Shown here piece by piece: positions 5,365 through 53,496 of a stretch of 64,000 nt of DNA. How positions within the stretch are numbered: the first letter of the stretch is position 1; each line of letters starts with the position of its first letter. The stretch comes from Liolophura sinensis. Lineage: Eukaryota; Mollusca; Polyplacophora; Chitonida; Chitonidae. The stretch is from contig NC_088304.1 of the NCBI RefSeq assembly GCF_032854445.1, positions 3,226,001 through 3,290,000 on the forward strand, in the 5' to 3' direction. The notes beneath the pieces were generated by a model. The model searched no databases. It was not told the origin of the DNA and was given only the letters and a program-made list of their open reading frames with translations. The translations under genes and the position numbers were made by a program.

Positions 5365-5570
5365 CCCGTTTTCAGCTAGGTACCTCCCCGTTCTCAGCTA
5401 GGTACCTGCCCATTCTCAGCTAGGTACCAAATTGTTAAGGGAAGGCAATGTAGCTCATTCTCAGCTAGGTACCAAATTGTTAAGGGAAGGCAATGTAGCC
5501 CATTCTCAGCTACGTACCTCCCCGTTCTCACCTAGGTACCGAATTTTTAAGGGAAGGCAATGTAGCCCAT
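5365..5570 (+). repeat. Tandem repeat with 'ctcagctaggtacc' core
   Basis: The short 'ttctcagctaggtacc' core recurs about seven times. The longer unit (about 45 bp, including 'gttaagggaaggcaatgtag') recurs three times. Confidence 0.8.
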
Positions 5571-5809
5571 TTTCAGAGCCCAATCTTCTGCATTTTTTAA
5601 ACGCCACATTTTGATTAATTCTGATTGATTCATCCACTTTATGGGGATGTTTGATTAATTTCTTCTTAGAATAACTTAAGTAGATAGAAAAAAAATATAA
5701 TTTTCAGGCCTTTATGTGCTTCCTAAAAGGCAATTTTTCCATAAAAATACAGTATATTTGTAAATTTAAAATGCTAAATAAGGATAACATAAATCATATT
5801 TAAGTATGT

Positions 5810-6035
5810 CTACACTAACACACCTGCAACGTCCGCACTAACATACCTGCAACGTCCGCACTAACATACCTGCAACGTTCACACTAACATACCTGCAAAG
5901 TTCGCACTAACACACCTGCAACATCCACACAAACACACCTGCAACGTCCACACAAACACACCTGCAACGTCCACGCTAGCATACCTGCGATGTCCACACT
6001 AACACACCTGCAGCGGCCACACTAACATACATGCA
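5810..6035 (+). repeat. 23-bp tandem array
   Basis: About nine units like 'actaacatacctgcaacgtc' plus three bases. Confidence 0.85.
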
Positions 6036-8105: not shown

Positions 8106-8241
8106 TTATGAGTCCAGTTGCATCTTGAAGCTGTGCCGTGAAGTTATCCACTGGATAGATTCTGCTTCCACAGGCGTCTTTAGAGTTTTTTCGATGTATT
8201 CTGCATTTCCATCTGAATCTATCAGTATGACTGTCATCGTT
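8106..8241 (-). CDS. TANGO2: TANGO2-A exon 7 (terminal coding exon)
   Basis: It encodes 'TMTVILIDSDGNAEYIEKTL' and ends 'HSFKMQLDS' at TAA (8106-8108). It is nearly identical over its central part to exon 7 of copy B, unlike the other shared exons. Confidence 0.92.
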
Positions 8242-11200
8242 CTGTTCAAATAAGGCAAAAGACAAGAATTAACATAAAAAACAACAACTAACATCACAAA
8301 CAACAACTGTAAACAACTATCATCACTCTGAATCAGGAGAGTCACATCACTTTGTAATTAATTTTATATTGTGAAGAACTCGATACCATAGATGTATAAT
8401 GGCACTTTAGTGTCAAGAAATTGTGAACGGTATCTGTAGGCAGAGGGCCGGACACTGATGGTGGCCCCTGCTCTCTGAGACCTACCTGGTGCCATATCTG
8501 TTAGCAGGGGACCAGACATTAATGGCGGCCAGCTGTTGTCTGAGATCTTCAGGTAAATTTTTACCCTCATTGTCCAGCTGCTCATCTGGAAGGTGTCTGA
8601 CAAGTAAAGATAATTTTCTCTCATTGCCGTAAATTTCAGACTACAATGGTAACTATAAAACATTTATTCTTCATTACAACACACAATTCAAAACAGTCAC
8701 AAAATGAACTGTGGGAGATCCAATTGTGTCCACCCTACCACCGTATCCTTTCAACCTTTTTGCTTTTCTTCCCTGAAGATTTAGTGATTTATTTATTTAT
8801 ATCTGGTTGGCATTTTACTTATATATCACAGCTAGCATGGCGGTGGGAGGAAACTGGGCAGAGCCCAGGGGAAACCCACGGCTACTCACCTTAAATTTTG
8901 TTGAAAAGGGATAGGCTGGCCCAAAACTCCAACTTTATTGGTAACTTGTCATGGTGAAGCCTCATACCAAGTGTCAATTTAATATGAAAACTTTTTACGA
9001 ATCATATGGACATTTATCGACATACAAAACTGAAACAAGACATTACTATAATTTTGTCGAAAAATGATGAAACAACCCAAAATTTGATAATAAACATTAA
9101 CTCATCATGGTAGAACCATATTCCAAAGTTCAACTCAATATGATGCACCATTGCCAAAAAAAAAAAAATCCAGAAACCTGTTTACTGATGGACTGACAGA
9201 CAGACAAAATTTTGATTTTGGAAACAAAATTAAATTGGTTGGATTGGAAAATTTAGGGTTTCACACAAAGAATTTTATCATTCTACACCTAATAATGCCA
9301 TCCGAATATGCTTGCAAACAGGCTTGAAGAATTACTGTACTAACATATATTGCCCTTATAATGATAAGGCAAATAAAGTTGATAATGACACCACCACCCC
9401 AACCCCCCAACACCCCTTACCTAAAAAAACAGTGTACACGTACAAATAATATGAGAATGCTCCATATCTGGAAGAAAGCCAGAAAGAAAACATGATGTCT
9501 TACTTTGACTTGTCTGACAATAGCTGAAATAACTCCTCCAACAGCTTCTCCTTCTTGTCAGTTGTTCCATTTGCTTCCACTATTTTTTTGAAGGCAGCTT
9601 TTCCAACTTCCACTTTTTTCCACGCAGGCTTGTGTCTACAGTTTCCAAAACCGTGATAACCTTGAGGAATTGGGGGGAAAAAAAGACAACTGTTTGAATG
9701 TATTGGCAGATATATATGTATGGATGCTGCGTTCATTATGGCATTTAAAAAGTCACTCTAAAATGGTTAAACCTTCCCGTCAATCTGCCAGCAACTTGCA
9801 GATGGTTGTGGGTTTGCCCAGCATCGTACAAATATTCATTGGGAACCGTGTAAAGCAACCAGTCAAGTAAATAGTCATAAACATTCCAGCCTAAATACAC
9901 AATAATGCCTTCAGAATAAGCTTGAATACACACCTTGCAAACATGAAAAAAGGTTGAAGAATTACAGTAAGTAGGCGAATGATCACTGCTGTAGCGAATG
10001 ATCACTGCTGTAGCGAATGATCACTGCTGTAGCGAATGATCACTGCTGTAGCGAATGATCACTGCTGTAGCGAATGATCACTGCTGTAGCGAATGATCAC
10101 TGCTGTAGCGAATGATCACTGCTGTAGCGAATGATCACTGCTGTAGCGAATGATCATTTGCAATCAGAAGATATAGGTTCAATCCCATACTTGGATCTAG
10201 AATTTCTCTGCTTCCATTTTACTCCTTAGGCAGTTAGCCTTTCACCAATAAGACGCGCATGTATGACATCTACTTGTTCATGACATTGTAGAGTGCCTGT
10301 TGCTCACCTAAGGCCCATGGTGGGGACCAGACACGCCAGACTGCCTCCCATCATACAGCTGATCAACTTTTCAGTCAGTATAGCACTGAGTAAGAATCAA
10401 AGTCATTATTACAGGGATCTACTGCCAACGTTGAAACAATGTCCTGTTATTTCGGACACCATCTACCTAAAGCTGAGACTACCAGACGTAGTATCGAATG
10501 TTCAGTTTTATCCGAGGTTACCCTTCGACCACCAAATCACTCAAGTCGTTGTATTTATAAAGCCTGATTTTTTGAGCCTGTTACCTCCCATTGTTGTCTA
10601 GACGATGAGAAATGTTCAGCAAACTTGAAATGTCAAACATGGCACTGCGTAGTAATTATGCGATCCACAGAGTAACTGTTTTGCCGTACAGATTTTTGGG
10701 AATTACAAATATTTTATAAAATGTTATTGATAGAAAGGGTGAGTTAGTGCTCGGGGTTTAACATCGTGATTAACAATTTTCCAGTCATATGAGGACAAAG
10801 GAGTCCTTAGAGTGCATGTAATGACTGCCTCTGCAGGACAGATTTCCACTGTTCCTTTATCTAGTGCTGATCCACTGGAACGACTTACCGAAGGCAAGTA
10901 AGCCACCCCACCTAATCCATTATACTGATACAGGTCATCCAGTCCTGTATGCTATACCCTGGATGCTGAATGCCAAGCGGGGAAGTTACATCTATCTCTT
11001 TGAAAGTCTTAGGTGTGACCCCTCCCAGGATTGACCCTGGATCTACCTCTCCCGAAGTGGACACTCTACTAACTGAGCTATTGGGGTCAGTCGATGGAAT
11101 ATAAGATTGTATTTGGTTTACTAGACCTTCAATTCTATTTCAATCTCTAATATTGTTTACATGTGCGATCGATGAGCAAACATTGCATTGAGGGAATCTT

Positions 11201-14200
11201 TGCTCTGTTATCTCATTGGGCTGACAGTTTAGACCAGTGATGAACTTCCCCATGTCATTCTCTTGATATTTTTTTGGAAAATATAGGCCCAGGAGTTTTA
11301 GTTAGGACTCAGACGCAACTCATTTTCATATTTAGCAAAACCAACTCAAACATTCTGTATTTCTTACAGTGGTATATCCCTTTAAAACTGCCCAAGGACA
11401 ATGTATGTATTAGAAAGACTAGACAATCAATGGAAGAGAAACTGTTAGTGCAACAAACCTTGAGGTGTAATGTCCAACAGCTTGTCATAATACTGGGTCC
11501 AGCTGGACAGGAATGTCAAAGTGTACTTCCAACCAGCTCTGTAACAAGGTAAAGCAAAGGCTTTGTTTTAATGCCAGATTGCCACAATAAATGACTAGCT
11601 GATTTTGGTGATAGAACATTCACTGCGTTGACCAATGTCAGATATGTTTCCAGTTTTATCTCGGATTTCTGTACTCTATTACATGGCACAATTCAACTAT
11701 GTACTCTATTACATGGCCTTTATTCAACTGTGTGCTCTATTACAAGGCACAATTCAACTGTGTACTCTATTACGTGGCACAATTCAACTGTGTACTCTAT
11801 TACGTGGCACAATTCAACTATGAACATGACACCACCAATACAGGCAATGTGATGTCATTTCAAAGAGGCAATGTAATGTTACTAGGAAGACGCAATGTTA
11901 TGTTACTAGGAAGATGCAATGTTATGTTACTAGGAAGATGCAATGTTATGTTACTAGGAAGATGCAATGTTATGTTACTAGGAAGAGACAATGTGATGTT
12001 ACTAGGAAGAGGCAATGTGATGTCATTTCAAAGAGGCAATGTAATGTTACTAGGATGACGCAATGTTATGTTACTAGGAAGAGACAATGTGATGTTACTA
12101 GGAAGAGGCACTGTGATTTTACTGGGAAAGGGCAAAACAATGTTATGAAGAAGAGGCAATGTAACTTTATAGGATGGGGAAATGTCATGTCACTCGGAAG
12201 AGGCAATGTGACATTACTAGGACGAGGAAATGTCATGTCACTAGGAAGGGGCAATACGACAATGTGATGTTACTACAATGAAGCAATGTGATGTCACTTT
12301 GAAGAGGCAATCTGATGTTACTAAAGGAGGCAATGTGGTGTTTAAGAGAATGAAATGATGTGATGCAGCTGGAATGTGGCAATACAATGTCATGTCACAA
12401 GAATGAGGTGATGTGATGTCAACCGGTGAGGTGGTCTCAAGAAAATTTAAACACTTGAGTGGATTAAACAAAGCAGAACCCTAAATAAACCACTGCACGG
12501 CTCCAGGCACCCTGACAATCCTCCTGTTACAACGCTACATGTACGCCATTGGCAACTTATTGAAGGGACAGTGATCAAAACTCAAACTGTGATAAAGTCA
12601 CAAATTATAGAATTGCATAAATTTATATTTGAAAAGATTGAAGACTGACTCATTGATGTTTAGCACTGTACATACATGTACAGAAACCAGGTGGTTACAG
12701 ACTCACTGTGTATGTACAGAAACCAGGTGGTTACAAACAGACTCACTGTGTATGTACAGAAACCAGGTGGTTACAAACAGACTCACTGTGTATGTACAGA
12801 AACCAGGTGGTTACAAACAGACTCACTGTGTATGTATGGAAACCAGGTGGTTACAAAAAGGCTGACTGTGTATGTATCGAAACCAGGCAGTTACAAACAG
12901 ACTCACTGTGTATGTATAGAAACCAGGCAGTTACAAACAGACTCACTGTGTATGTATAGAAACCAGGTGGTTACAAACAGACTCACTGTGTATGTATAGA
13001 AACCAGGTGGTTACAAACAAACTCACTGTGTATGTACAGAAACCAGGTGGTTACAAACAGACTCACTGTGTATGTATAGAAACCAGGTGGTTACAAACAG
13101 ACTCACTGTGTATGTACAGAAACTAGGTGGTTACAAACAGACTCACTGTGTATGTATAGAAACCAGGTGGTTACAAAAAGACTGACTGTGTATGTATCGA
13201 AACCAGGCAGTTATAAAAAGACTGACTGTGTATGTATCGAAACCAGGCAGTTACAAACAGACTCACTGTGTATGTACAGAAACCAGGTGGTTACAAACAG
13301 ACTCACTGTGTATGTATAGAAACCAGGTGGTTACAAACAGACTCACTGTGTATGTATAGAAACCAGGTGGTTACAAACATACTCACTGTGTATGTATAGG
13401 AACCAGGTGGTTATAAACAGACTCACTGTACATGTACAAAAACCAGGTGGTTGCAAACAGACTGACCTCATGTGCAAAGTAACAGACTCACTTTTCACAT
13501 GTATACATAGTCAGCATGCAGCTGGTTCCAAGCATTTACGTAACAAACAAGCTCACCTTATGTGTAGAGTAACAGCACGCTTGCGAACACTTACCTTACA
13601 TGCAGAGTAACAAGGTGATTTTAGACAGACTCAACTCATATGTAAAGTAATCAATTAGTGCAAATACACTCATCATATATGTTGGGTTAAAGAAGTGGTT
13701 AACCACTTACCAAATGGTTAAAAACAGACCGACCTTATGTATACAGTAATCAGCTGGTTAAAAGCAGACTCACTTTATATGTAGCGTAATCAGGTGGGCA
13801 CAAAAAGACTCACCTTATGTTTAGAGTAACCAGGTATTTATAAACAGACTCACGTTTTGTATACAGTAATCAGCTGGTTAAAAGCAGACTCAGTTTATAT
13901 GACGAGTAGCCAGCTTGTTACAGACGCACTCACCTTATATGTACAATAACCCGATGGTTAAAGACAGACTCGCCTTATGTGTAGAGTAACTAGGTTAAAA
14001 CCATTATACTGGTCCACCTCTGAGAAAACAGACCTCAGGTATATTAACCCGATGGTTACAGACAGACTCACCTTATGTGTAAAGCAACCAAGTTAAAACC
14101 ATTATACTGGTCCGCCTCTGAGAAAACAGGCCTCAGGTATGTTAGCCCGATGGTTACAGACAGACTCACCTTATGTGTAAAGCAACCAGGTTAAAACCAT

Positions 14201-16477
14201 TATACTGGTCCGCCTCTGAGAAAACAGACCTCAGGTATATTAACCCGATGGTTACAGACAGACTCACCTTATGTGTAAAGCAACCAGGTTAAAACCATTA
14301 TACTGGTCCGCCTCTGAGAAAACAGGCCTCAGGTATGTTAGCCCGATGGTTACAGACAGACTCACCTTATGTGTAAAGCAACCAGGTTAAAACCATTATA
14401 CTGGTCCGCCTCTGAGAAAACAGACCTCAGGTATATTAACCCGATGGTTACAGACAGACTCACCTTATGTGTAAAGCAACCAGGTTAAAACCATTATACT
14501 GGTCCGCCTCTGAGAAAACAGACCTCAGGTATATTAACCCGATGGTTACAGACAGACTCACCTTATGTGTAAAGCAACCAGGTTAAAACCATTATACTGG
14601 TCCGCCTCTGAGAAAACAGACCTCAGGTATGACTGCTGGTCATTTGAGGATGTTAGGCAATTCGTGACTAGATGACCTGCAAATCAGACACCGTACAAGC
14701 ATTTGCTTACACACAAGACAAAGTTACATTTGATTGATGCGACAATTTTGAAACACACAAGAACACAGGAGAGCCTGGATCAAACTGGGTCGGGTCATAC
14801 GAAAGACTTTCAAAAATGGTACTTGTTGCTGCCTCGCTTGGCACTCAACACTGAAAGTTTAGAGTAAGGAAACAGGACTGGTTAGCAGTATAATGTGACT
14901 AGGTGGGGTGCCAGTATAATGTGACTGGACAAGGTGTCAGTATAATGTGACTGGGTGGGGTGTCATATATGGTGTCTTTGGCATGGTAATTCAGTGGCAG
15001 CAGCACTTTGGCTATGTGGTATGTACACACAACTAATGGCTCCTCGTCATTAAATGAAAAATTGTCAAGTATGACATTTAAATCCAAGCATAAGTATATT
15101 AATACAACTATACACGTATATTAGTATCTACTAACAACTATAACACTGAGAGGAAACTACCAGTCTTTATCCATAAGGCTTTTTCTCTAGTTTGTATGTA
15201 TATAGCTAATGTAACCAGAATTGTTATCACCTATCACACTGTCTGCCATCAACATACAAGACGCTCATCAGTGATTGATGCTTGTGGGCCAATTAGCCAT
15301 TATGCCAATAAAGACATATACCTTACCTCTACCCTTCTTGTTAGGGTCATTCTGACTTGAGAGAATATTCAACAGCGATGCAAAATGCCCCGTTTTTGAC
15401 AATCCTAGCCAGGTACCTCCTTCTTTGCCTGGTTCTTCATCCAGACCTAGAGACAGAGCAGGTACTTGACAAACCATATGTATAATGTAACATTGTGGCC
15501 AATCCAACAGGGCATGAAGTAAGCTAATCTTACAATAACCAACCTCAGTTTCCAATTTCATCTGAAATCTAGTTATCACTTGCTGCGTTATTCTATCCTT
15601 AAAGATGTGTCCCTTAAATATGATGATCACCTACATGCACAGATAATCACTCATCACTTATATGACAGTCACTTATATATGACAGTCACTTATCCATGAT
15701 AATCACTCATCACCTACATGACAGTCACTTATATATGATAATCACTCATCACTTATATGACAGTCACTTATATATGATAATCACTCATATCACTTATGAA
15801 CGACAGTCACTTATATATGACAGTCACTCATCCATGACAATCACTTATCACTTATATGACAATCACTTATCCATGATAATCACTCATCACTTATATGACA
15901 GTCACTTATATATGATAATCACTCATCTTACACTTATATGACAGTCACTTATATATGATAATCACTCACATCACGTATATATGACAGTCACTTATATATG
16001 AGTCACTCATCACTTATATCAGTCACTTATATATGATAATCACTCATCTGACGCTTATATGACAGTCACTTATCCATGATAATCACTCATCACCTACATG
16101 ACAGTCACTTATATATGATAATCACTCATCTGACGCTTATATGACAGTCACTTATATATGATAATTACTCATCACTTATATGACAGTCACAGGGACAAAC
16201 CATGGTCAATGAAATGATTATCATAAATTTACAAGTCACTCAACTCACTTTATGATGATCAATTATATGACGATTGCTCATCAAGTGCGACACAGGTATA
16301 AACTAGTCAGAACACTGACCCTTGAACCAACTCACCACTGATACAGTCTTGGTGGGAAGGCCAGAAGTCAGCCAGCTTAGTTGGCCTGTCCCACAGCTCA
16401 TCTCTGTTGTTAGCAATCACCACAGGGTATCTCCTGGGGGTGGGGTTCTCATCCAGGCTTAAGAACAACAGACACAT
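8106..16477 (-). CDS. TANGO2: TANGO2-like protein, complete gene, copy A (7 exons)
   Basis: Exons in coding order: 16477-16336, 15446-15327, 14676-14562, 11538-11459, 9660-9504, 8596-8486, 8241-8106. Lengths of 142+120+115+80+157+111+136 give 861 nt, which is 286 codons plus TAA, close to the roughly 276 residues of vertebrate TANGO2. The protein starts 'MCLLFLSLDENPTPRRY' with the family's Cys2. It then carries NNRDE (residues 23-27), 'LADFW', 'GKEGGTWLG' (54-62), 'YNGFNL' (115-120), 'GFGN', 'NRYGTR' and 'TMTVILIDSDG' near the end, all in TANGO2 (NRDE family) order. TANGO2 is linked to mitochondrial and ER/Golgi lipid and heme handling; its chemistry is unsettled. All splice sites are GT/AG and all phases agree. 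The introns are loaded with tandem arrays, one derived from exon 3. Confidence 0.92.
8486..8596 (-). CDS. TANGO2: TANGO2-A exon 6
   Basis: It encodes 'HLPDEQLDNEGKNLPEDLRQ' to 'NRYGTR'. The Tyr-Gly-Thr-Arg junction to the last exon is a family hallmark. Confidence 0.9.
8790..8890 (-). mobile_element. Truncated SINE in TANGO2-A intron
   Basis: The reversed tail 'tttatttatttatatctgg' is followed by the 'ggtgggaggaaactgggcag' body segment. There is no tRNA head. Confidence 0.65.
8905..9240. repeat. Probable dispersed repeat in TANGO2-A intron
   Basis: The region has the 'caacttgtcatggtgaagc' / 'actgatggactgacagac' character that recurs loosely at 32480-32600 in copy B. This suggests an old shared insertion or a dispersed element. 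Confidence 0.3.
9504..9660 (-). CDS. TANGO2: TANGO2-A exon 5
   Basis: It encodes 'GYHGFGNCRHKPAWKKVEVG', a Lys/Glu-rich helix and 'ELFQLLSDKSK'. It aligns with the 'YGLSNA..PW' segment of TANGO2. The donor is gtaaga. Confidence 0.9.
9772..9832 (+). mobile_element. SINE body fragment
   Basis: 'tctgccagcaacttgcagat' and 'gttgtgggttt' match the middle of the type 1 SINEs. Confidence 0.5.
9974..10155 (+). repeat. 19-bp tandem array
   Basis: About 9.5 almost perfect copies of 'gcgaatgatcactgctgta', in the intron between TANGO2-A exons 4 and 5. The low divergence suggests a young array. Confidence 0.95.
10738..11092 (-). mobile_element. Full-length tRNA-derived SINE (tail type 2)
   Basis: On the minus strand the element starts with a tRNA-like head: 'tagctcagttagtagagtg' as A box and 'gatccagggtcaatcct' at the B-box place. 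A 200-bp body follows, then the tail 'cctttgtcctcatatgactg' ending in a gttaaaccc-type motif. Relatives are at 26800 and 27310. Confidence 0.8.
11459..11538 (-). CDS. TANGO2: TANGO2-A exon 4
   Basis: It reads 'AGWKYTLTFLSSWTQYYDKL' then LDITPQ, with a gtttgt donor. Exon size and phases equal those of exon 4 of copy B. Confidence 0.88.
11665..11822 (+). repeat. 30-bp tandem array
   Basis: About five units like 'ctctattacgtggcacaatt' plus 'caactgtgta'. Located 130 bp upstream (minus sense) of TANGO2-A exon 4. Confidence 0.9.
11845..12440 (+). repeat. 24-bp tandem array
   Basis: About 25 units like 'ggcaatgtgatgttactagg' plus 'aaga', progressively diverged to the right. The unit length is divisible by three and leaves long stop-free frames on both strands, which are not genes. 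Confidence 0.9.
12665..13455 (-). repeat. 40-bp array derived from the TANGO2-A exon 3 / donor junction
   Basis: About 20 copies of a 40-bp unit. Read on the minus strand, the unit contains 'acctggtttctgtacataca' then 'cagtgagtctgtttgtaacc'. By hand alignment about 34 of 41 positions match the end of TANGO2-A exon 3 and its donor region ('acctggttgctttacacata' then 'aggtgagtctgtctgtaacc'). Each unit keeps GTGAGT. Confidence 0.85.
13456..13990 (-). repeat. Decayed exon-3-derived repeats
   Basis: Irregular copies of the 'agactcaccttatgtgta' and 'gtaaccaggt' motifs link the 40-bp array to the 98-bp array. Spacing and sequence are degraded. Confidence 0.7.
13972..14640 (-). repeat. 98-bp tandem array containing the 3' part of TANGO2-A exon 3 plus its donor
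   Basis: The core 'ccattatactggtcc' starts at 14001, 14099, 14197, 14295, 14393, 14491 and 14589, exactly 98 bp apart. The copy at 14589 lies inside the functional exon 3; the other six lie in intron 3. Each unit holds, in minus sense, 'ctgaggtctgttttctcag', the YNGFNL codons, a gtgagt donor and about 30 bases of intron. Confidence 0.95.
14562..14676 (-). CDS. TANGO2: TANGO2-A exon 3, source of the tandem array
   Basis: The acceptor is 'tgatttgcag' and the donor gtgagt. It encodes residues 88-126, including 'SYLRSVFSEADQYNGFNLVA'. Its last 60-70 bases, together with the donor, are the unit repeated in the following intron. Confidence 0.88.
14815..15085 (+). mobile_element. SINE-like element (tail type 2 relative)
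   Basis: It has 'ttgttgctgcctcgcttgg', a thrice-repeated 'cagtataatgtgactgg' segment, 'tggtgtctttggcatgg' and a 'gaaaaattgtcaagtatgac' tail. A close relative is at 21225-21505 and shorter ones are at 27330 and 44590. Confidence 0.7.
15327..15446 (-). CDS. TANGO2: TANGO2-A exon 2
   Basis: The acceptor is 'gtctctag' and the donor gtaagg. It encodes 'GLDEEPGKEGGTWLGLSKTG' and continues to Lys-Gly-Arg, ending phase 1 within Gly88. Confidence 0.92.
15630..16195 (+). repeat. Tandem array of 'gacagtcacttatatatga' type in TANGO2-A intron 1
   Basis: About 25 short units alternate 'gacagtcacttatatatg' and 'ataatcactcatcactta', forming higher-order units of about 36 bp. Confidence 0.9.
16336..16477 (-). 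CDS. TANGO2: TANGO2-A exon 1
   Basis: It runs from ATG (16477-16475) to a gtgagt donor, ending in phase 1 inside Gly48. It encodes the N-terminal Cys2 and the NNRDE and RPTKLADFW motifs. I chose this ATG because Cys directly after Met is characteristic of the family. Confidence 0.9.
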
Positions 16478-18959: not shown

Positions 18960-20201
18960 TTATATTTTATGATATAGGCCAATGGCCTTCAAATAATTTA
19001 TGACAACATCGCCAGCGATGCTGTCAAATAAATCATATACAGAGGTGACCGTGTAAAACCTTTGCCGAACATGAGCAAAGTCCACACAGTCAACCAAGAT
19101 ATGTTTGATGCCGTATTGAGCAGCACATCCAACACACTCGGGAGCACTGCTCCCATCTAAGATGAAATTGTGTGTCAGATGAGAATGCCCAATACTACAC
19201 CTCATTAAAACTACTTGGTCTCTGCGAGGCATTTGACAAGTATAGGCATTGTAGCCAAAGATAGGATGAATGGCATGCAGTTTATTATGGATCTGCAAGT
19301 CCCATTCACCCTGCCAAAGGCGACGAATATATTTAAGAATATTAGACTTCACGTCAGTATAAGGGATTTTAACCCGAGATACAGGTTTATATAGGGCAGC
19401 TTTTGCTTCCCTGTCCACAACTGTGTTTCCATGGATACCAGTGTGACTTGGTATCCAACAGAATATAATATCTTTACCTCTTTTAATTAGTTTTCGGTGT
19501 TTGGCTATTATCTCAGGTATCAATGGATTTTTAAATTTATTATTCTGAATCGCCAAAAGGCAAGACAGCGAGTCGCTGCATATCACTGCCCTCTGGACAT
19601 GCCCAAAGGAAACATATGATAAGGCCAGGAGTACAGCCCTGGCCTCTGCAGAAAAGATAGAAGATGAAGGTGGCAGACGAAGAGAAGTGACCCGCTGCTC
19701 TAAGACAGCCGCAGCCGCAACCCTGTCCCCATCCTTTGACCCGTCAGTATATATAAATTTATAATCCATATAATCAGCCTTGATTTCAGCAAAACCTTGC
19801 TGAATTATAAGAGGATTTGTATTGGATTTATTATATTTACGTAGATCAAATATTAGTTTAGTTTGTGGAAGAAGCCATGGAGGAGACCCCGGAAAAGACA
19901 CCGGAGCTATATCCTCCAGCTTGATGTTAGCACCCACAATATGGCCCCGCACGCGAAGACCGAACGAAGGGATCTTGTTAGGACATTTAATATATTTGTC
20001 TACATATAATGGATTGAAAACACAGTCGTGGGCAGGGTTTGTTGGATGAGCTTTAAGCTTACTAGCGTATTGAAGGCTAAGTTTTATACGTCGGTTGTAT
20101 AAAGAAGGCTCATTTGCCTCCACATATAAACTTTCTACTGGTGAGGTTCTAAAGGCACCAAGGCTGAGCCTCAAACCTTGGTGATGAACAGGATCCAACA
20201 T
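18960..20201 (-). pseudogene. RT C-terminus and RNase H frame of LINE family 1
   Basis: A long open frame of 413 codons holds the RNase H catalytic pattern: Asp in TDGSKDG, Glu in AEARAV, Asp in SDSLSC, and His/Asp in HTGIHGN...D. It is cut off from the upstream RT frame by one frameshift. The intact length suggests a fairly recent insertion. Confidence 0.8.
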
Positions 20202-20923
20202 TTTAATGTACGACTTCCTAGCGAACCGTAAATGATGGATCCATAGTCCAATTTAGACCTCACCAGAGAACGATAGAAATTAAGTAAAACTGATCGGTCA
20301 GCACCCCAATCGGTGCTAGACACGACCTTAATTATATCGAGAGCCTTTGTACATTTAGCCTTAAGCATTTTTATATGAGGTATAAAAGATAGCTTACTAT
20401 TAAATATTATACCTAAAAATTTAGTTTGTCCAACAATTTTAACCTGTTCACCACAAAAATTAAGCTCGGGATCAAGATGAAATTTCCGTTTGTTACAATG
20501 CATACCGACGGTTTTAGATGTTGAAAATCTAAAACCATTTTCAGTTGCCCATTTCTCGATTTTATTAAGACAAAGCTGCAACTGACGTTCGATATTATTC
20601 ACATTCTTAGCTCGGTAGCATATAAGGAAATCATCAACATATAAAGAACCCTCTGTGCCTGATGTTAATGTTTTGGCTAGGCTATTTATTTTTATGCTGA
20701 ACAAAGTTGATGATAGAATACTTTTAACTCTGGTAACACCTTGTGAATTTAGTTCTCTACAGATTTCTTCTTCCGATAAGTCTATTATATCCTGATCCCG
20801 GTCAAGTATTATTCCCTGACAGCTGTTCAGGGAATTGTGAGGGGACGTATATACAGGTATATCAGTAATTTTCTTCAGTGAAAGTAAATTTATCTTTTTA
20901 AGAACTGCATGCCCTGTAAACAG
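20171..20923 (-). pseudogene. Chimeric ORF1/RT frame of LINE family 1
   Basis: Open from about 20923 through YVDD (near 20640) to a stop at 20171. The N-terminal 70 residues look like ORF1 protein and the remainder like RT palm and thumb. The junction lies between 'SQGVTRVK' and 'SILSSTLF', where ORF1 and RT share similar sequence. Confidence 0.7.
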
Positions 20924-26480: not shown

Positions 26481-26634
26481 CTTCATGAAAAAAAATTACA
26501 CCTCGCTGCTGTACCGAAGGGGGACGATTTCCCATCTAGTTGCCATGGGCCCTTTGACGTGTGAGTATCTTGTGGTGGAAAAAAACAAAAAACAAAAAAA
26601 AGGAAAAAAAAACACAAATACTCTATGATGACGA

Positions 26635-27245
26635 CCTCTATGATGAGGTTGCCACGGCAGCCCCCCACCGGCCGAGGCTCATCACGGCAGCCTCCATGGG
26701 CTGAGGTTCGCCAGGGCGACCTCCACCGGCTGAGGTTCGCCACGGCGGCTTCTACTGGCTGAGATTCGCCAAGGCGGCCTCTTCAGGCCGTGGTTAGCGG
26801 CCCGGCTAGCAGAGTTGGTAGAGTGTCCGCTTCGGGAGCGATAGATCCAGGGTAAATCCTGGATCGAGTGACGATTAAGACTTTAAAAAAGAGGAAGTTG
26901 CCTCTTCCTTACTATACGTTCAGCATGAGGGGCGGATTACTTGCCTTCGGTAAGGCGTTTCAGTGAAGCAGCACTAGATAAAGGAGCGGCGGAACTCCGT
27001 CTTGCCACAAGCGGGCACATTACGTGCATTCTAAGGATTCCTTCGTCGTCATATGACTGAAAAATTGTTAAGTACGACGCTTCGACTCACTCAGACTGGA
27101 GTTCGCCACGGCGGCCACCATAGGCTGAGGTATGCCACGGTAGCCTTTAATGCCTGGGGCTCGCCACGGCGACCTACACCGGCTGAGGTTCGCCACGGCG
27201 GTTTTCATCGGTTGAGGTTCGAATACGGTAGATATGGGATTCAAT
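26635..27245 (+). repeat. GC-rich ~30-bp array interrupted by a SINE
   Basis: Units like 'ggctgaggttcgccacggc' plus 'ggcctccacc' occur at 26640-26795 and again at 27090-27235, on either side of the SINE at 26797-27087. GC content is much higher than in the surroundings. Confidence 0.8.
26797..27087 (+). mobile_element. tRNA-derived SINE (tail type 2)
   Basis: The head is 'agcagagttggtagagtgtc' with 'gatccagggtaaatcct'. The body includes 'cttgccttcggtaaggcg' and the tail 'ccttcgtcgtcatatgactg', 'gttaagtacgacg'. It is the forward counterpart of 10738-11092. Confidence 0.8.
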
Positions 27246-27309
27246 CCCGAATCAAGTCATACGGCTTTAACAACAGTAATCTTGGCATTATCACAACATC
27301 AGAGGAATA

Positions 27310-27475
27310 GGTCAAGTACTGGACGCCCCGGTGTCCTTACAAAGTGGCTCGATGGACGTTGTGTATGGTGTCTTTGGCATGGCATTCCATTGAAGCAGCA
27401 CTAGGTGCGACCTACTGCAAGGAGAACCATATGACCGAAATAATGTTGAAAGTGACGTTAAACCCCATCAAAGAG
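27310..27475 (+). mobile_element. SINE-like fragment (tail type 2)
   Basis: 'gtatggtgtctttggcatgg', 'agcagcactaggtgcgac' and a tail ending 'aaagtgacgttaaacccc'. Confidence 0.6.
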
Positions 27476-28139
27476 AATAAGCAATCAACACGGTGTGATA
27501 GGCACTTCGTTGAAGACCATTTTTCTCACCAATAATATGGGTGCAAGCCTGCGTGTTCATCAGTATCGTGGCAACGGTCGACAGTTTACCTCGGGGTAGT
27601 CCGATTTCCTGATCCCATAAATATTATCGCAATCATGTAAGTGAAAAAATCTCCAGAGAAAAACTAGCGTTAAACAACTATCGAATAAACACATAAAGTG
27701 CCAAAAGATGTTCCTGTCAATCAGACAGAGACAACATTTTTTTTCACCAATCAAAAGCCTTTTGTCACCAGAGAGAAATACAGTTATTATCGTATAATCC
27801 AGAGTGTTTCAATAGAGGTTTTCGAAATATTTACGAAACATAGCCCACTTCTGGTTAAATTGGAATTCTCGTCCCCAAGTTATGGAAATATACTGCATTA
27901 TACATTCGGATATATTTTTATGAAGTGCACAAAACGCATGTTTTCGTTTATTGTTCTCTTATTCATAAAATAGTTTTTGCCAATATTGTTAAACAGTATA
28001 AGACAGAGACAAGAAGGGATGAAGGGCAAGGGGAAATTTATATCTTCTGCTTAAATGTTAGCTGATTAGAAAGATATATAGTCAGAATTTATCTCGTACC
28101 CCGACCAAAATATCTCGCGGTTCCACATGCTGGTCAAAC

Positions 28140-28860
28140 GGGCCAAAAACTTGTACCCCAGACTTCAAACAGTATATCTACAAGTCAGGCTACATCTCGA
28201 AGCTGTGTCGTGACCCTCGGACAGTCCATACGCTCGTAAATATGAGGACGGCTGAATTGTGAAGCGGAGTCGTGAAGGTATTATGACCAGCTATATATTG
28301 ATCATCCTAATAATTCATGTACACTACCTAGTAAACGAGTTAGAGACAAGCTGTGTACACACATGCAGTGGTTAAGTGTAATGTACATGTAAAATACTTA
28401 TAATAGACACGTGACATACGAATAGTTAAATCAAGCTATAGACTGGGCAGTCAACTGTGTCCAGCTTGTTAACATAGTTAAGTAGATTAAGTGTGGGGAT
28501 TAACTTTCCATATGTGCATTTGACTAATCAGTCGGTGTTTGTAATTAAAGAACAAGTTTATACTTGAAACCTGCAACTGTCACTAATAGCTAAGTAAACA
28601 AACAATTGTAAGTATAAATATGGTTGTTTCTCAAGTAGAGAGGGGAAGGAAAAAGGGTTTAGGGTTGACCTGTAAGGGCCTCAGAGTTGGTCACTCCGAT
28701 GTTGTTATGTATAATACATGCCTGTTGTCACTAAGAACGCCTTGGGGAGTTTTCCTATCGACGTTAAACATGCAGTGAAGATAAATAATGGTGACCATCC
28801 CGGTCGCAATTTTATTTAAGACCCTAACCCGGTCTTACTATCCACAGAATGTAACCAGAC
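28140..28860 (-). repeat. Outlying decayed copies of the 68-bp repeat, and flank
   Basis: Isolated 'gaagctgtgtcgtga' and 'ggctgaattgtgaagc' pieces at 28190-28280 resemble the units of the array that begins near 28860. The rest is unremarkable. Confidence 0.5.
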
Positions 28861-30660
28861 TCCCGACAGTCCATAACTATGAGTCCGGCTGAATTGTGAA
28901 GCTGTGTTGTGAAGCTATCCGCTCAATATAACCAACTTCCCAATAGTCTCTCTACTGGTCAAGCGGCTTTTAGAAGCTGTGCCGTGAAGCTATCCACTCA
29001 GTATAAGCAAACTGTCTACCTACGAGTCAAGCTGCATCTTGAAGCTATGCCGTGAAGTTATCCACTCAATATAAGCAAAAGGTCTACCTACGAGTCAAGC
29101 TGCATCTTGAAGCTATGCCGTGAAGTTATCCACTCAATATAAGCAAAAGGTCTACCTACGAGTCAAGCTGCATCTTGAAGCTATGCCATGAAGTTATCCA
29201 CTCAATATAAGCAAACGGTCTACCTACGAGTCAAGCTGCATCTTGAAGCTGTGCGGTGAAGTCATCCACTCAATATAAGCAAACGGTCTACCTACGAGTC
29301 AAGCTGTATCTTGAAGCTGTGCCGTGAAGTTATCCACTGAATATAAACAAACTGTCTACCTACGAGTCAAGCTGCATCTTGAAGCTGTGCCGTGAAGCTA
29401 TCCACTCAATATAAGCAAACTGTCTACCTACGAGTCAAGCTGCATCTTGAAGCTGTGCGGTGAAGCTATCCACTCAATATAAACAAACTGTTTACCTACG
29501 AGTCAAGCTGCATCTTGAAGCTGTGCCGTGAAGTTATCCACTCTATATAAGCAAACTGTCTACCTACGAATCAAGCTGCATCTTGAAGCTGTGCCGTGAA
29601 GCTATCCACTCAATATAAGCAAAGTGTCTACCTACGAGTCAAGCTGCATCTTGAAGCTGTGCCGTGAAGTTATCCACTCAATATAAACAACTTCCCAATA
29701 GTCTCTCTACTGGTCAAGCGGCTTTTAGAAGCTGTGCCGTGAAGTTATCCACTCAGTATAAGCAAACTGTCTACCTACGAGTCAAGCTGCATCTTGAAGC
29801 TATGCCGTGAAGTTATCCACTCAATATAAGCAAACGGTCTACCTACGAGTCAAGCTGCATCTTGAAGCTGTGCCGTGAAGTTATCCACTCAATATAAGCA
29901 AACTGTCTACCTACGAGTCAAGCTGCATCTTGAAGCTGTGCCGTGAAGTTATCCACTCAATATAAGCAAACTGTCTACCTACGAGTCAAGCTGCATCTTG
30001 AAGCTGTGCCGTGAAGTTATCCACTCAATATAAGCAAACTGTCTACCTACGAGTCAAGCTGTATCTTGAAGCTGTGCCGTGAAGTTATCCACTGAATATA
30101 AGCAAACTGTCTACCTACGAGTCAAGCTGCATCTTGAAGCTGTGCGGTGAAGTTATCCACTCAATATAAGCAAACTGTCTACCTACGAGTCAAGCTGCAT
30201 CTTGAAGCTGTGCCGTGAAGTTATCCACTCAATATAAGCAAACGGTCTACCTACGAGTCAAGCTGCATCTTGAAGCTGTGCCGTGAAGTTATCCACTGAA
30301 TATAAGCAAACTGTCTACCTACGAGTCAAGCTGCATCTTGAAGCTGTGCCGTGAAGTTATCCACTCAATATAAGCAAACTGTCTACCTACGAGTCAAGCT
30401 GCATCTTGAAGCTGTGCCGTGAAGTTATCCACTCAATATAAACAAACTGTCTACCTACGAGTCAAGCTGCATCTTGAAGCTGTGCCGTGAAGTTATCCAC
30501 TCAATATAAGCAAAGTGTTTACCTACGAATCAAGCTGCATCTTGAAGCTGTGCCGTGAAGTTATCCACTGAATATAAGCAAACTGTCTACCTACGAGTCA
30601 AGCTGCATCTTGGAGCTGTGCCGTGAAGTTATCCACTCAATATAAGCAAACTGTCTACCT
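28860..30660 (-). repeat. 68-bp array derived from the last exon of TANGO2-B
   Basis: About 25 copies of a 68-bp unit. On the minus strand each reads 'tggataacttcacggcacag', 'cttcaagatgcagcttgact', then cgtag and a gtagac spacer. The first two parts are the final 40 or so coding bases of TANGO2-B exon 7 plus the stop codon. Most units differ by one or two bases; the left edge (28860-29000) is more decayed and includes a variant unit repeated at 29690. Confidence 0.95.
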
Positions 30661-30794
30661 ATGAGTCAAGCTGCATCTTGAAGCTGTGCCGTGAAGTTAT
30701 CCACTGGATAGATTCTGCTTCCACAGGCGTCTTCAGAGTTTTTTCGATGTATTCTGCATTTCCCTCTGAATCTATCAATATTAACGTCATTGTC
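30659..30794 (-). CDS. TANGO2-B exon 7 (terminal coding exon)
   Basis: 'RTMTLILIDSEGNAEYIEKT' to 'MQLDS' and TAG. About 95 consecutive bases differ from copy A at only one or two positions. Immediately downstream begins the array built from its own end. Confidence 0.88.
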
Positions 30795-33039
30795 CTGTTA
30801 AGAAGAAGAAGAATAAAAAAAAAACATAGGACATCAACTGAACCTAAAACAATATAAAATCGAAAACGATATGCCAGATTTTTCTTGGCCAAAAAAACGA
30901 TATTCGATAATTAAATCAAATTTTCCTTATTTACCAAGAATTATAAAAAGACTCGTACCTGCGCTATTTATAGTGTTAAAATTATTCTGAAGTTTGAAAA
31001 AGATAAATGCCTGGTTTGGTGCAAACGGTTCTTCCAAACTCCTCTTCACCTACAAACGTGGTATCATACCAGTATATCATAAAACACCAATCAAATAAAC
31101 GTAGAAAATACAAATATCGAATTTGTGAGGTGTATTTTGAGCTTGTCTCCAGATTGGGGAGACAGCATTTACACAGGTTTGGGGAGACAGCCCACGGGAT
31201 CGCCTGTTCCCCACCCCAGAACTCCATACAACGTACATACCATACACATCACGTACCTAGTACCGCATCTGTATTTGGGAGACCAGTCATTGATGGCTGA
31301 CCGCTGTAGTCGGAGATATGTAGGCAGATATTTACCTTCGCTCTCTAGCAACTCATCTGGGAGGTGTCTGGCAAGTAAATGGAATTTATTTATTAACGGA
31401 ATGGCTATAAAATAAGACACCGACAGGCCATTTAATATGAATTATGATAATATTTATGAATACATTAAAAATATAAATATGATCAAAATCCAGGTTTAAC
31501 ACATTTTTTAAGCTGAAAAAGACGAAATTCTAATGCAAACATATATATTAAACACGTGTTGCATCCTCACTTATAACATTATTACACAAAGATATATGTA
31601 TATACCAAAAGATGCTCCCAATTACCCACCATACAAAAATTATTTTCAAGTGTATTTTTCTCTTTAAAGGAAAATGGGAGAAAATATATCACACTCACGA
31701 CTCTTCGGACTCTTTCATCTGAACTATTTTTTATTTTTTTCTCCATCTTTAAGACTAACTTTACAAAATAATGCTTTTATAATTAAACTACAATTTCCCA
31801 CATGAGGCAACAAACATACAATAGAAACAATTTACACAGACATTACATATGATTAGTTGATGCTGTTGATGTGCTATGAGAAAGAAAGCTGTAAAACTAA
31901 AATGCCTTACTTTGTCTTGTCAGACAATAACTGAAATAACTCCTCCAAAAGCCTCTCCTCTTGGTTCACCGACCCATACGTTTCGACCACTCTTTTAAAG
32001 GCATCTTTCCCAACTTCCACTTTTTTCCATGCTGGTTTATATCTACAGTTTCCAAACCCGTGACAACCTTCATAAAAATTTGAACAGGAAATGCTTGGGT
32101 TGGGAGTTGCGTTCAATTGGTTTTTTGTTGTTGTAAAAACCCATTGTCCACATTGTCGGTGGCTATTTGCTTTCTAGGTTTGTCTTTTTAATACATTGTT
32201 GTTAGCTCTGTTACAGCACGGAAGCCCAATAGTGCCGCGGTGAAAAAAAAATTCGACCTTTTTTCTCGAATCGGTTTACGTTGATGACTGACAAATCGTG
32301 TGGAACTGTGTACGTTCTGTTTTTATCTCGGGTTGTGCTATCCCAATATTCTGCTCTTTTAGCCATGAACATTAAGTGCAACGTGACTGGGTTAAGTTGA
32401 AATTTCAATTCAGACAAAAAGTCTGGGAAAATGCCAAAGAAGATTACAAAAAGGACCAAAATGGACGAACGGCCCCAACCTGAAACTTAATCTGTCACTT
32501 GTGAAGCCCTGCATATACCAGATTTCAGTTCAGTACGATTAACTATTTTGAAATAAAGTCCGAACAATCAATTCTCCACGGACTGACGAACTGACAGAGG
32601 ATTTTAATCTATATGTCCTGAGGTAACCTGCAGGGTAATAGAAAACAAAACAAAAACGAACACAGCTTCAGACAGGAAACGGTCGACATTGCTTTGCCTC
32701 CACCGTTTTTAATGTCATGGTGGCAAAATAAGCGGCTATCAGCTCGTACCATATCTGGTCTTACATGAAGATGAGATATGAAAACCTTAATTTGCGTCAC
32801 ATGCATGCGTGAGAAAGCCCCTTAGTTGTTTGCCAAAGGCCGATTGTTTATTATTCGATCGGTAACTTTACTTAATTCCGAATCAAAGAAGATGCTGTTG
32901 GGGAAGGTCATTCAAACAGATTGGAAGGCAATGGAATCAAAACCGAAAGATGTACAAACCTTGCGGTGGAATGTCCAAAAGTTGGTCGTAGTACTGTGTC
33001 CAGTTGGATGTAAACGTCAAGGTGTATTTCCAGCGAGCT
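30659..33039 (-). CDS. TANGO2-like copy B, last four exons
   Basis: Exons in coding order: 33039-32960 (80 nt), 32067-31911 (157), 31367-31257 (111), 30794-30659 (136). Sizes and phases are identical to exons 4-7 of copy A, with GT/AG sites throughout and no stop or frameshift in 160 codons before TAG. The protein starts 'RWKYTLTFTSNWTQYYDQLL' and ends 'HSFKMQLDS'. No counterpart of exons 1-3 (Cys2, NRDE, GGTWLG, YNGFN) is visible between 33040 and the gap at 41054. The copy is therefore either 5'-truncated (likely non-functional as a TANGO2 enzyme-fold protein) or its first exons are missing from the assembly. Confidence 0.85.
31040..31110 (+). mobile_element. SINE tail fragment
   Basis: 'cctacaaacgtggtatcata' leads into 'aaaacaccaatcaaataaac', in the intron between TANGO2-B exons 6 and 7. 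Confidence 0.5.
31257..31367 (-). CDS. TANGO2-B exon 6
   Basis: 'HLPDELLESEGKYLPTYLRL' to 'YRCGTR'. It is clearly diverged from copy A at both DNA and protein level. The donor is gtacgt. Confidence 0.82.
31911..32067 (-). CDS. TANGO2-B exon 5
   Basis: 'GCHGFGNCRYKPAWKKVEVG', then 'DAFKRVVETYGS' and 'LLEELFQLLSDKTK'. The donor is gtaagg. Confidence 0.85.
32960..33039 (-). CDS. TANGO2-B exon 4
   Basis: 'RWKYTLTFTSNWTQYYDQLL' then DIPPQ. The acceptor is 'tgtcttcacag' and the donor gtttgt, as in copy A. Confidence 0.8.
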
Positions 33040-33104
33040 CTGTGAAGACAAGTAATACCAAGTAATCATTTTAATCTCAAATTACACTCAAAATTAATTT
33101 GTTA

Positions 33105-33320
33105 ATCTGGCATATTTCCCAATTCTGTTATATGCCGCCATCTGGCATATTTCCGTATCTTGTTATATCCCACCATCTGACATATTTCCATATCTTGTTA
33201 TATCCCGCCATCTGACATATTTCCGTATCTTGTTATATCCCGCCATCTGGCATATTTCCGTATCTTGTTATATCCCGCCATCTTACACATTTCCATATCT
33301 TGTATATATGTTGTTATATG
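33105..33320 (+). repeat. 35-bp tandem array
   Basis: Five to six units like 'catctggcatatttccgtat' plus 'cttgttatatcccgc'. It lies just upstream (minus sense) of TANGO2-B exon 4 with no resemblance to it. Confidence 0.9.
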
Positions 33321-34589
33321 CCTCTAAACAAGTGTGAGACAGAATGAAGGCTTGACACAACCTGTCACGGCAAATTATTATTACTACACAAATTTCAACC
33401 TGTCGAAATCACGAATGTAATTCTTTATGGCCTCGGTATACGATGCATATAGAAACGACAGTGAACTTACGCTAAACTTTGATGAGACCCCACTTGGTTA
33501 TTTGATTGGAGTTTTACACTTGAATTCAATTTTAATTTAATGCTTTATTCATTTATGGAGGATTGCCAACGGTCATTGACGACTATGGGTTCTCCTCAAC
33601 AAACAGATTACAAATATAAGTATTTACAGACAGAGTTTACATATTACATGGGACTATGGGTCATATAAGGGTATCATGTCTCACACATATATAATCCTTT
33701 ACAGGGCATCTTAACAGGTGTATTCCCATGAACTTACTGGCTAAATCTGTGTGTGTCCAGGGTGTAGTTATGAGAAAATTTAAACTAAAGCCGATTTTCA
33801 GCGATTTCCAGGTCGTTGGACCCAAGAAGAAGAATTTTCCACAAGTGTTGCACGCTAGCTTTATCAGCTGTTAGAAAAGCATAATGTACACCTGGACACC
33901 ATAGTTTTGCGATACTCAAGGGCATGCGCCTTCCTGGAGCGGCGAAAGTCAGAAAGATAGTGTACACTATTTTCATTACGGTAATGACAATACTCACAAG
34001 GTTGATCTGCAATAATATTATATATTTGAAAAAAATCACAATGAAGAGCGCTCAGCCCCAATCGCATCCGGCAATGCAATATAGACTCAAAATTATCAAA
34101 GGAAGGATACTATGAATGAATACATTTGTCTGTTGGCCAAAACTGTTTTAATACAAATAAACTTGAATTTCTAATATCAACTGTTAAATTATTTCAACGC
34201 TTCGTAGTTCTAGGACAGAAGGAGGCTACAAATAAATTCAGACTAGTTTTGAAGAGATGCGATGGTTTCTACGACGCACATACAGGTAATCCCAGTTAAG
34301 TTTTTCAAATAGCGAAGAGCACCAGCACAAATTGTAGCTGCTCTACATTGTACTTTTTCTAATCTTTGCCTAAGCCTAGCACTGCAATTATCAAATATTA
34401 CATCTGCATATTCTAGAAAATTTTCTTCTCAGTCCGCTTTACTCTAGCCTTGATGCACAATTGTTTGTTGCTTCTGCAAATAACGTCTTTAATATGTTGG
34501 CCCCATTTGCCATTTTCCTGCAGTGTAATGCCAAGATGTTTATGGGATCGAACGCTCACCATCTCACTCTCACCCAGATACAGTTTGGG

Positions 34590-34795
34590 ATGGGAACAGT
34601 TTCTCTTCAGAAAGATCAACAAGCACACGGTTTTTTTGTGTGCATTAAAGGTTACCAACCATTGACTTGCCCACGAAGTTAGGTGTTGGAGGATAGGAAG
34701 GGTTTCTCTTCAGAGAGATCAACATCGTTTTTGTGCATTGAAGGTAACCAACCATTGACTTGCTCACGAAGTTAGGCGCTGGAGGTGCCTATTGA
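34590..34795 (-). repeat. ~100-bp local duplication inside LINE family 2
   Basis: 34600-34690 and 34700-34790 both read 'tttctcttcaga' ... 'gatcaaca' ... 'ccaaccattgacttg' ... 'cacgaagttagg'. This is a direct duplication of RT-coding sequence. Confidence 0.7.
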
Positions 34796-35635
34796 TTTTT
34801 TCTTCTCATAAAGTCACATCTTTAATAGGTTCATACAGTGAGATGTCATCTGCAAAAATGTTTATCATACATTCTACATTATTACTTATGTCATTTAGAA
34901 ATATTAGGGAGAGTAAGGGTCCCAAAACAGATCCTTCTGGAGCTTCAGAGCTAATTGGTTGTTCCTCAAAACCTATTCCATTTAAGCATACTTGAACAGA
35001 TCTATTAGAGATATAACTCTGAATCGATTTCAACAGAGACCCATCAACTTCTGGCTAAGTTTAAATAAAAGCCTTTCGTTCCACGCTTTGTCAAAGGTCT
35101 TACTAACATCTAGAAAGACCAAGCATACATCATTGCCTTTGTGTTGATTCATACAAATGTTATGAACCATTTCGTGACACTGTTGAGTCACTTTCTTTAA
35201 ACCAAGAATTTTTAGGAATAAACAAGTTTTTCAATGTACAAACGTTTGTATACGACTTTTTCAAGACCGCAGATAGACAGGAGAGTAGGGAAATTGGTCT
35301 GCTGTTGGAAACAACATTTCGCTGCCCTTTTTTAAAAACAGGACTTGGATGAGATAACTTCCACGCAGGAAGAAGGGAACAGGTAGACAACGAATAGTTG
35401 AACAACGTGCATAGGATGGTGCAATACATTCGACAGCATTTTTAACATGAAGTTAGAAATATGGTCGATACCAGTGGCTTTTTTTTAACTTTTAAGCACT
35501 TTAGAAGGGAAACAATTTCTGTTTTAATGGTTTGGCTAGGACAAATTCTTGACAGCGTACGATAAAACAGTGGTACGAACATCAGGGAACATTGTGGCTT
35601 TGCCAAGTAAGATGCAAACAGTTTACAAAACGTAT

Positions 35636-35842
35636 ATAACCCTGGTTTTCGAGTTTTAACTCTTATTTTTCTTTTATACGATTTTAAACATGTCTGTACT
35701 TTTTGTTTTTACTTTTGGTGTTCATATTATCATATCGAAAACCTTAACCGTCTCGCGTTTTCACCTTGTTCTCGCCACGATATGGCTGAAATATTGCCGA
35801 TGTGGCGTTAAGCCATAATCATTTATTCATTCATTCGTTCGA
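35636..35842 (+). mobile_element. 5'-truncated LINE family 1 copy (3' end only)
   Basis: About 200 bases, 'ataaccctggttttcgagtt' to 'gttaagccataatcatttat', match the reverse complement of 18700-18905 almost base for base and end in a TTCA-like tail. It is a typical short target-primed insertion, here within LINE family 2. Confidence 0.85.
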
Positions 35843-36480
35843 CGGCATGTCTTTTTGCTATAGTAGCTTCACGTCTTGCCATATATTAGTGCCATGGTCA
35901 ACATCAGAATGTGTTCTTTTAAGTTTTTGAAACATCTGTTTCTAATTCGGAATTTACGAGGGAAATCATTGGTCATCCTGGGTTTATCTCTAGGCTGTAT
36001 CGTAACTACCTTTTTGGGTACGACTTCGACACAACACGATAGAAATAAATTACTCCATGCATAGGCTTTTATCTTTTATATTGTAAAAAAAAAATACCTG
36101 TCACTATATGCCAAGGGGTGTATTGCAAAAGGCACTATAGCTGCACACGGTTTGATGCCTTACAGTCAATTATTTGCCGTTTGTAAGACTTAGGTCTACC
36201 TGATCTAATAATATTAAGGTGACAGTATACTGTGCAATGGTCTAGATTAGCCAAGGGGCAAGTAACACCAGATTTCGTAATATAACCTGGACTATCGGTA
36301 ATATTTAAATCTAATAACATAGCGCTTATTGGATTATCGGGTTGGTTCATTAATAAGTTGAAAACAGTTCTTTCCTTTGATTATATAGTATAAATCCATT
36401 TTCGATGCACTATTGTGGTGAAGTAGCATTTATCATTGCAATCCCCCATGATTAAAATACAAGCAGGGTTCTCATTCCAG

Positions 36481-41053: not shown

Positions 41054-41253
41054 NNNNNNNNNNNNNNNNNNNNNNNNNNNNNNNNNNNNNNNNNNNNNNN
41101 NNNNNNNNNNNNNNNNNNNNNNNNNNNNNNNNNNNNNNNNNNNNNNNNNNNNNNNNNNNNNNNNNNNNNNNNNNNNNNNNNNNNNNNNNNNNNNNNNNNN
41201 NNNNNNNNNNNNNNNNNNNNNNNNNNNNNNNNNNNNNNNNNNNNNNNNNNNNN
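41054..41253. other. Assembly gap of 200 N
   Basis: A round-number run of N directly abuts the 30-bp array, so the true array length and the order of the two flanks are not established. Confidence 0.99.

Positions 41254-41493: not shown

Positions 41494-53496
<12,003 letters not shown>

Follow-up and report, generated by a model that had tools for sequence, protein, structure and literature searches.

The window considered here is a 64,000-nucleotide (nt) stretch of contig NC_088304.1 of the chiton Liolophura sinensis (positions 3,226,001 to 3,290,000, forward strand). It carries on its minus strand a TANGO2 gene in which the end of exon 3 and its splice donor are tandemly repeated into the following intron. 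The assembly was published as Liolophura japonica (PMC11068029, in its available passages), and a correction names the species L. sinensis (PMC12441733). Once joined, exons 1 to 3 match the TANGO2 profile (PF05742, E=1.4e-38) in an unbroken alignment over profile positions 1-126, and two later exons, joined in the same way (9660-9504 and 8596-8486), cover positions 149-235. The family assignment made in an earlier note on this window is thereby upheld, and the letter that the note gave to the gene, TANGO2-A, is apt because a partial second copy, TANGO2-B, lies at 32068-31256.

Seven head-to-tail units of exactly 98 bp make up the array, each consisting of the last 68 nt of exon 3 and the first 30 nt of intron 3. 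Tandem Repeats Finder (TRF; 13947-14630, period 98, 7.0 copies, 96% matches) and in-register alignment agree on it, as the earlier note had claimed in describing seven exactly spaced repeats of the exon end with its donor; the exon end has indeed become a minisatellite unit. Where the note spoke of exon 3 as repeated, this is true of its last 68 nt and not of the whole exon, since 14630-14676 is unrepeated out of 115 nt. The span that it gave, 13972 to 14676, has its lower limit inside unit 7, and shorter units of 40 bp run on to 12676. The check that the note had set against itself was an alignment of the repeats outside 14562-14676 with exon 3; these repeats do match, so its claim is not refuted.

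Units 1 to 6 are 96-100% identical in pairwise comparison, and unit 7 shares 89.9-91.9% identity with them; these percentages include one constant separator character per row. Two pairs are identical (1 and 2, 3 and 5); a third, 4 and 6, has C at position 10 in common and a single difference. This pattern suggests a minisatellite in which a pair of units was recently duplicated and the end unit would lie outside homogenisation. The recent expansion or homogenisation proposed before fits the near-identity of units 1-6 together with the diverged unit 7. As the true exon lies within the homogeneous set, coding sequence and intronic copies would either exchange or be very young copies. An assembly artefact, in which a near-identical repeat is falsely expanded, might be suspected from the identity of units 1 and 2 and from a 200-N gap (41054-41253) that adjoins another array of the window. 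It is nevertheless highly improbable, given the ordered variants among the units, the diverged end unit and the further boundary arrays elsewhere in the genome; besides, the PacBio HiFi reads described in the available part of PMC11068029 (mean 8,347 bp at 14X) exceed the whole 1.9-kb repeat region. Compared with phage records, the 98-bp array gave no match, as expected.

The donor motif GTGAGT is kept in six of the seven units: the statement that all units keep it holds for units 1-6, and unit 7 reads GCGAGT. The peptide Y-N-G-F-N is encoded in all seven, in line with the earlier note, and is spread over three reading frames, as 98 cannot be divided by 3. That each unit still encodes Y-N-G-F-N-L could recall a tandem exon duplication retained for protein diversity, with the units serving as alternative exons. 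We give this next to no credence, as the units hold only the last 68 of 115 nt without the acceptor of the exon itself, are read in three different frames, and give stops upon inclusion in the cases tested. Mutually exclusive exon duplication involves a whole exon with its own acceptor and donor and a kept frame, with which a unit length of 98 does not agree.

Beyond the 98-bp array, 40-bp units built on the same edge between exon 3 and its donor extend to 12676 (Table 1). Past unit 7 the donor recurs every 40 bp, and the six 40-mers whose donors lie at 13934-13734 agree with the exon 3 boundary in 27-31 of 40 positions. Their consensus matches at 33 of 40, the best of 5000 shuffles reaching 25 (p<=2e-4). 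Further on, the consensus of 18 40-mers from 12676-13463 reaches 31 of 40 when rotated to its best fit (best of 5000 shuffles 24, p<=2e-4). Each 98-bp unit holds one entire 40-mer and the first 8 nt of the next, and the 98-bp duplication, being nested within the 40-bp one, would be the later of the two. By eye, TAACC...GGTT is seen in both exon 3 and intron 3, about 40 bp apart. The earlier note overlooked this nested array, as well as the prior description of this kind of structure and the other cases in the window and in the genome.

Table 1. Features of the window and junctions discussed in the text (a slash marks a splice junction)
Feature	Position	Strand	Basis or remark
TANGO2-A exon 1 (coding part, ATG at 16477)	16336..16477	-	open frame, CAGTG/GTGAGT donor, PF05742 match
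TANGO2-A exon 2	15327..15446	-	CTAG/GT acceptor, GAG/GTAAGG donor, frame continuous with exon 1
TANGO2-A exon 3, 115 nt	14562..14676	-	TTTGCAG/GTCATC acceptor, AAG/GTGAGT donor, profile match up to position 126; final 68 nt form the exonic portion of unit 1
98-bp array, seven units	13944..14629	-	TRF and in-register alignment
Unit 1	14629-14532	-	carries the true exon 3 end
Unit 2	14531-14434	-	identical to unit 1 over 98 nt
Unit 3	14433-14336	-	in-register alignment
Unit 4	14335-14238	-	in-register alignment
Unit 5	14237-14140	-	in-register alignment
Unit 6	14139-14042	-	in-register alignment
Unit 7	14041-13944	-	diverged terminal unit, donor GCGAGT
Older 40-bp units	13715..13973	-	in register with unit 7 donor (exon-side 18 + intron-side 22); consensus of six 40-mers
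Stretch with 40-bp register lost	13464..13714 (approximate)	-	register comparison
Second 40-bp array	12676..13463	-	TRF 19.8 copies; consensus, best rotation
TANGO2-A later exon (profile about 149-200)	9504..9660	-	closes intron 3 or a following intron
TANGO2-A later exon ending ...NRYGTR	8486..8596	-	31 nt of tail recur once in intron at 8461-8431
TANGO2-B, partial second copy	31256..32068	-	two later exons, 32068-31910 and 31366-31256
BCAS3 exon with tail and donor tandemly repeated	41788..41952	+	PF21034 E=1.3e-34, joined with next exon
69-bp array from BCAS3 exon tail and donor	41946..42090	+	TRF; alignment against shuffles
Arrays with donor-like units by TANGO2 or BCAS3	5499-5540, 5808-6035, 13718-13989, 13947-14630, 36473-41052, 41946-42090, 49197-49500, 50276-50969	gene sense	
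Donors with p<=0.05	TANGO2 exons 1, 3 and exon ending 8486; BCAS3 41577, 41952		per-junction shuffle test
Acceptor with p<=0.05	BCAS3 45170		per-junction shuffle test

On the sense strand, GTGAGT occurs 27 times in 12676-14562, the real donor included, and 13 times elsewhere; the opposite strand has 15. The donors of units 2-6 are identical to the real one and score 12.4 bits each with a hand-entered weight matrix, which also underlies the donor enrichment test given below. Splicing from any of the eight later donors tested would bring in TGA as codon 127, 4 nt beyond where exon 3 normally ends, because AAG/GTGAGT is read in this phase as AGG TGA. Exon 3 also has an acceptor-like TTTTCTCAG/AGG, repeated in all seven units. 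Between the units lie six 52-nt intron-like spacers, each with GTGAGT, CTAAC or TTAAT, and TTTTCTCAG; CTAAC is found in two of the six, its second A standing 24 nt from the spacer end (counted by eye). Combinations of the remaining 46-nt pieces as mini-exons give TAA at codon 131 in all six cases tested. Since later donors and mini-exons hit stops, only the first donor among the choices tested is predicted to yield the normal protein.

If the extra donors were used, alternative or regulated splicing would yield stop-containing, decay-prone RNAs that tune TANGO2 output, and the structure would be a poison array. The donors of units 2-6, indistinguishable from the real one, and the signals present in every spacer speak for this, and human IFI6 is reported, in the available passages of PMC4526556, to use two downstream repeat units as donors. 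We find it unlikely all the same, as with each later choice tested the protein would end early, at codon 127 or 131, and as the amphioxus arrays known as mirages are reported, in the parts available of PMC3087553 and PMC3902484, without disturbance of regular splicing. The array might also be an intron gain in progress, in which the in-unit acceptor and donor become fixed, the spacers turn into introns and the 46-nt pieces into exons. The acceptor-like site of all seven units, the CTAAC of two spacers and a model of this kind drawn for amphioxus globins (PMC3087553, available passages) would agree with it, but with a stop in every mini-exon combination tested this outcome is very unlikely. Intron gain by tandem duplication is known from potato RNA-dependent RNA polymerase (PMC4974935) and has been reviewed (PMC3443670); in the passages available of both, coding sequence with splice signals is tandemly duplicated, as here. 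In TANGO2, however, what is duplicated includes an exon end and donor that already existed, and stops occur in the mini-exon products tested.

Turri et al. are said to have described, in 1995, a minisatellite of human IFI6 (6-16) that provides multiple splice donor sites. At the DNA level the chiton array is similar, minisatellite units offering donors at one exon end; in IFI6, however, two downstream units are reported to be used, giving three mRNAs (PMC4526556, as far as available), whereas the downstream donors tested in the chiton give an early stop. In amphioxus, mirages have been described in Adh3, in the globins BflGb6 and BflGb9, in PGBD5 and in troponin C (PMC3087553, PMC3902484), and boundary minisatellites are called a possibly general phenomenon in cephalochordates (PMC3087553), both statements being taken from available passages. 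Three marks of a mirage are found in TANGO2-A: head-to-tail repeats of exon and adjoining intron (68 + 30 nt, seven units), an authentic boundary at the array edge (unit 1 is the end of an exon matching PF05742) and splice signals in many copies (GTGAGT in six of seven units and 27 times in 12676-14562). The likeness to amphioxus, within those passages, extends to unit size (10-160 bp reported there), to AG/GT signals kept in many units, to less homogenised units at the cluster edge and to the position of the authentic exon at the edge of the array. The chiton case differs in belonging to the mollusc phylum, in nesting 98- and 40-bp units on one donor, and in the internal acceptor-like site of each 98-bp unit. 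Moreover, amphioxus splicing was tested by reverse-transcription PCR according to the same passages, whereas the splicing outcomes given here for the chiton are predictions. In the open-licence literature no earlier molluscan or chiton boundary array came up, either in the one search worded for these animals or among the titles listed by more general ones, which is weak evidence of absence, and the available passages of PMC2206037, PMC4039745, PMC12783039 and PMC12005716 hold nothing on such arrays. The kind is already known (amphioxus, human IFI6) and, as far as the literature searched shows, the mollusc represents a new phylum for it.

We consider it probable that the structure is a minisatellite spanning a splice donor, or mirage, which arose by tandem duplication, was later expanded and homogenised, and whose copies are carried as intron. 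In a first step, a short duplication would have copied the last 18 exon bases and the donor into intron 3, perhaps seeded by the TAACC...GGTT stretches of exon 3 and, about 40 bp on, of intron 3; the duplicate would then have grown into the 40-bp array. In a second step, a 98-bp duplication would have begun deeper in the exon, ended 8 nt into the second 40-bp unit and expanded to seven copies; it is placed later because it is nested in the first and nearly undiverged. Unequal exchange or conversion may hold units 1-6, the real exon included, near-identical, the end unit being left behind. At the RNA level, the spliceosome would take the donor directly attached to exon 3, which is the first, and would remove the remaining copies as intron; a later donor or an in-unit acceptor-like site would give an early stop. 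The coding exon is a likelier source than the array, since the exons are open and match PF05742.

Several observations weigh against this account. The alignment of the first 30 bases of intron 3 with exon 3 is not significant (p=0.29), and the value for the intron after unit 7 (p=0.0075) does not count as independent, since a 40-bp copy of the exon end is already present there. The model of TANGO2-A is incomplete, since neither an internal exon of about 22 codons, sought between 14560 and 9700, nor the last exon was found; with the former not located, the exon at 9504-9660 may close intron 3 or a later intron. TANGO2-B cannot date the array because this copy stops short of exon 3, and dating through the paralogue was dropped. 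The use of the first donor is itself deduced from sequence. Finally, among 26 exon junctions of TANGO2 and of BCAS3, another gene of the window, only two lie in TRF arrays (2/15 donors, 0/11 acceptors), though arrays make up 24% of the spans of both genes (P = 0.033 for a count this low), and a nearby direct repeat scoring at least 30 is found at 21% of 989 positions chosen at random, compared with two donors out of 15 and no acceptor out of 11.

A preference of minisatellites for exon boundaries, tested in the window, is thus not supported. The 26 junctions were hand-picked from readable exons, some of those of BCAS3 by eye and from what is known of the protein. Against 200 shuffles, 5 of the 15 donors and 1 of the 11 acceptors reach p<=0.05 (Table 1), uncorrected for many tests. 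Donor enrichment in TRF arrays is only marginal (p<0.05 in 5 of 36, pooled p 0.041); the 36 come from 39 merged arrays, of which the three with a unit shorter than 12 nt were set aside. The most economical reading is that this genome generates minisatellites at many places and that an array taking in a donor can persist, since the original donor remains the first one and its copies end up in the intron.

Other boundary arrays are present in the window. The 69-bp array of BCAS3 repeats the tail and donor of the exon ending at 41952 (alignment score 33, shuffle maximum 26 of 200), and the TANGO2 exon ending at 8486 has a single intronic tail copy (27, shuffle maximum 20 of 200). A donor-like unit of at least 8.5 bits is present in nine arrays. 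Eight are in or beside TANGO2 or BCAS3, all on that gene's sense strand; among these, 5499-5540 and 5808-6035 lie past the final TANGO2 exon to be located, and the pair in intron 3 cannot be counted as independent. The ninth, at 26644-26781, is with no known gene. On the BCAS3 sense strand, the 30-bp array at 36473-41052 (about 152 copies, unit with AGGGTAAGT) ends at the 200-N gap mentioned above, and the arrays at 49197-49500 and 50276-50969 have donor-like units (CTGGTAAGA, AAGGTAAGA), the latter starting about 165 bp past a probable BCAS3 exon end at 50110. By eye, no neighbouring BCAS3 exon tail was recognised in the units of these three arrays.

The repeat scan of the genome covered 60 loci, namely 30 of 138 kinase matches and 30 of 50 chaperonin matches, only the best matches having given sequence; the two families were picked for conservation and not at random. 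Direct repeats of the coding match occur at 4 of the 60 loci, none of them among the 30 kinase loci, many of which have long open frames, and four among the 30 chaperonin loci; these four fall in 2 of 11 gene clusters. At L043, as read by eye, the exon tail LVPGGGATEMALAQ and donor recur in 66-bp units; an 88-bp spacing follows further on. In this CCT-like exon (1471-2022, gene sense) the 66-bp boundary array is open and in frame, unlike that of TANGO2, and read-through would give repeated LVPGGGATEMALAQ-type peptides. The units read by eye at L054 are of 109 bp with exon tail and GTGAGT, and those at L051 are degenerate and have a donor edge. L052, another CCT-like exon (1400-2034, gene sense), has a 41-bp array with CTAAC and TACAG on its acceptor side and a 27-bp array beyond the donor; it is the least convincing of the four, since the Pfam match itself extends into the array.

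Concerning TANGO2-B, its exons are 74-82% identical to those of TANGO2-A, and genome searches (609,464,459 bases, 632 contigs) gave no match for exons 1-3 of this copy. A 68-bp unit repeated about 26 times at 28958-30705 adjoins it, and about two units' length of the same repeat (140 bp, 8107-8246) stands beside TANGO2-A with 93% identity to the TANGO2-B side; the repeat is more alike between the copies than their exons are. Matches to zf-UBP_var at 26500-36400 are read as putative chance matches to this 68-bp repeat. A perfect 19-bp array (9975-10156, 9.6 copies, 100% identity) lies in a TANGO2 intron, some 300 bp ahead of the exon at 9660. Remains of a retrotransposon without long terminal repeats, with reverse transcriptase and RNase H matches in differing frames, are found at 18960-20704.

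Exon-boundary minisatellites may form a genome-wide recurring class in this chiton, mostly on the donor side, with arrays that would be standing raw material for new introns and for the rewriting of exon ends by exchange with intronic copies. This is possible, if doubtful, and we propose it because each TANGO2 spacer is already a 52-nt intron-like segment with a donor, CTAAC or TTAAT, a pyrimidine run and AG. The mollusc cases, in TANGO2, BCAS3 and CCT genes of one genome, suggest that such structures can originate wherever minisatellites are abundant. Boundary minisatellites are a practical hazard for gene prediction. They also offer natural tests of the way in which the spliceosome singles out one of many identical donors, of tandem duplication as a route to intron gain, and of whether coding sequence is overwritten by intronic copies.
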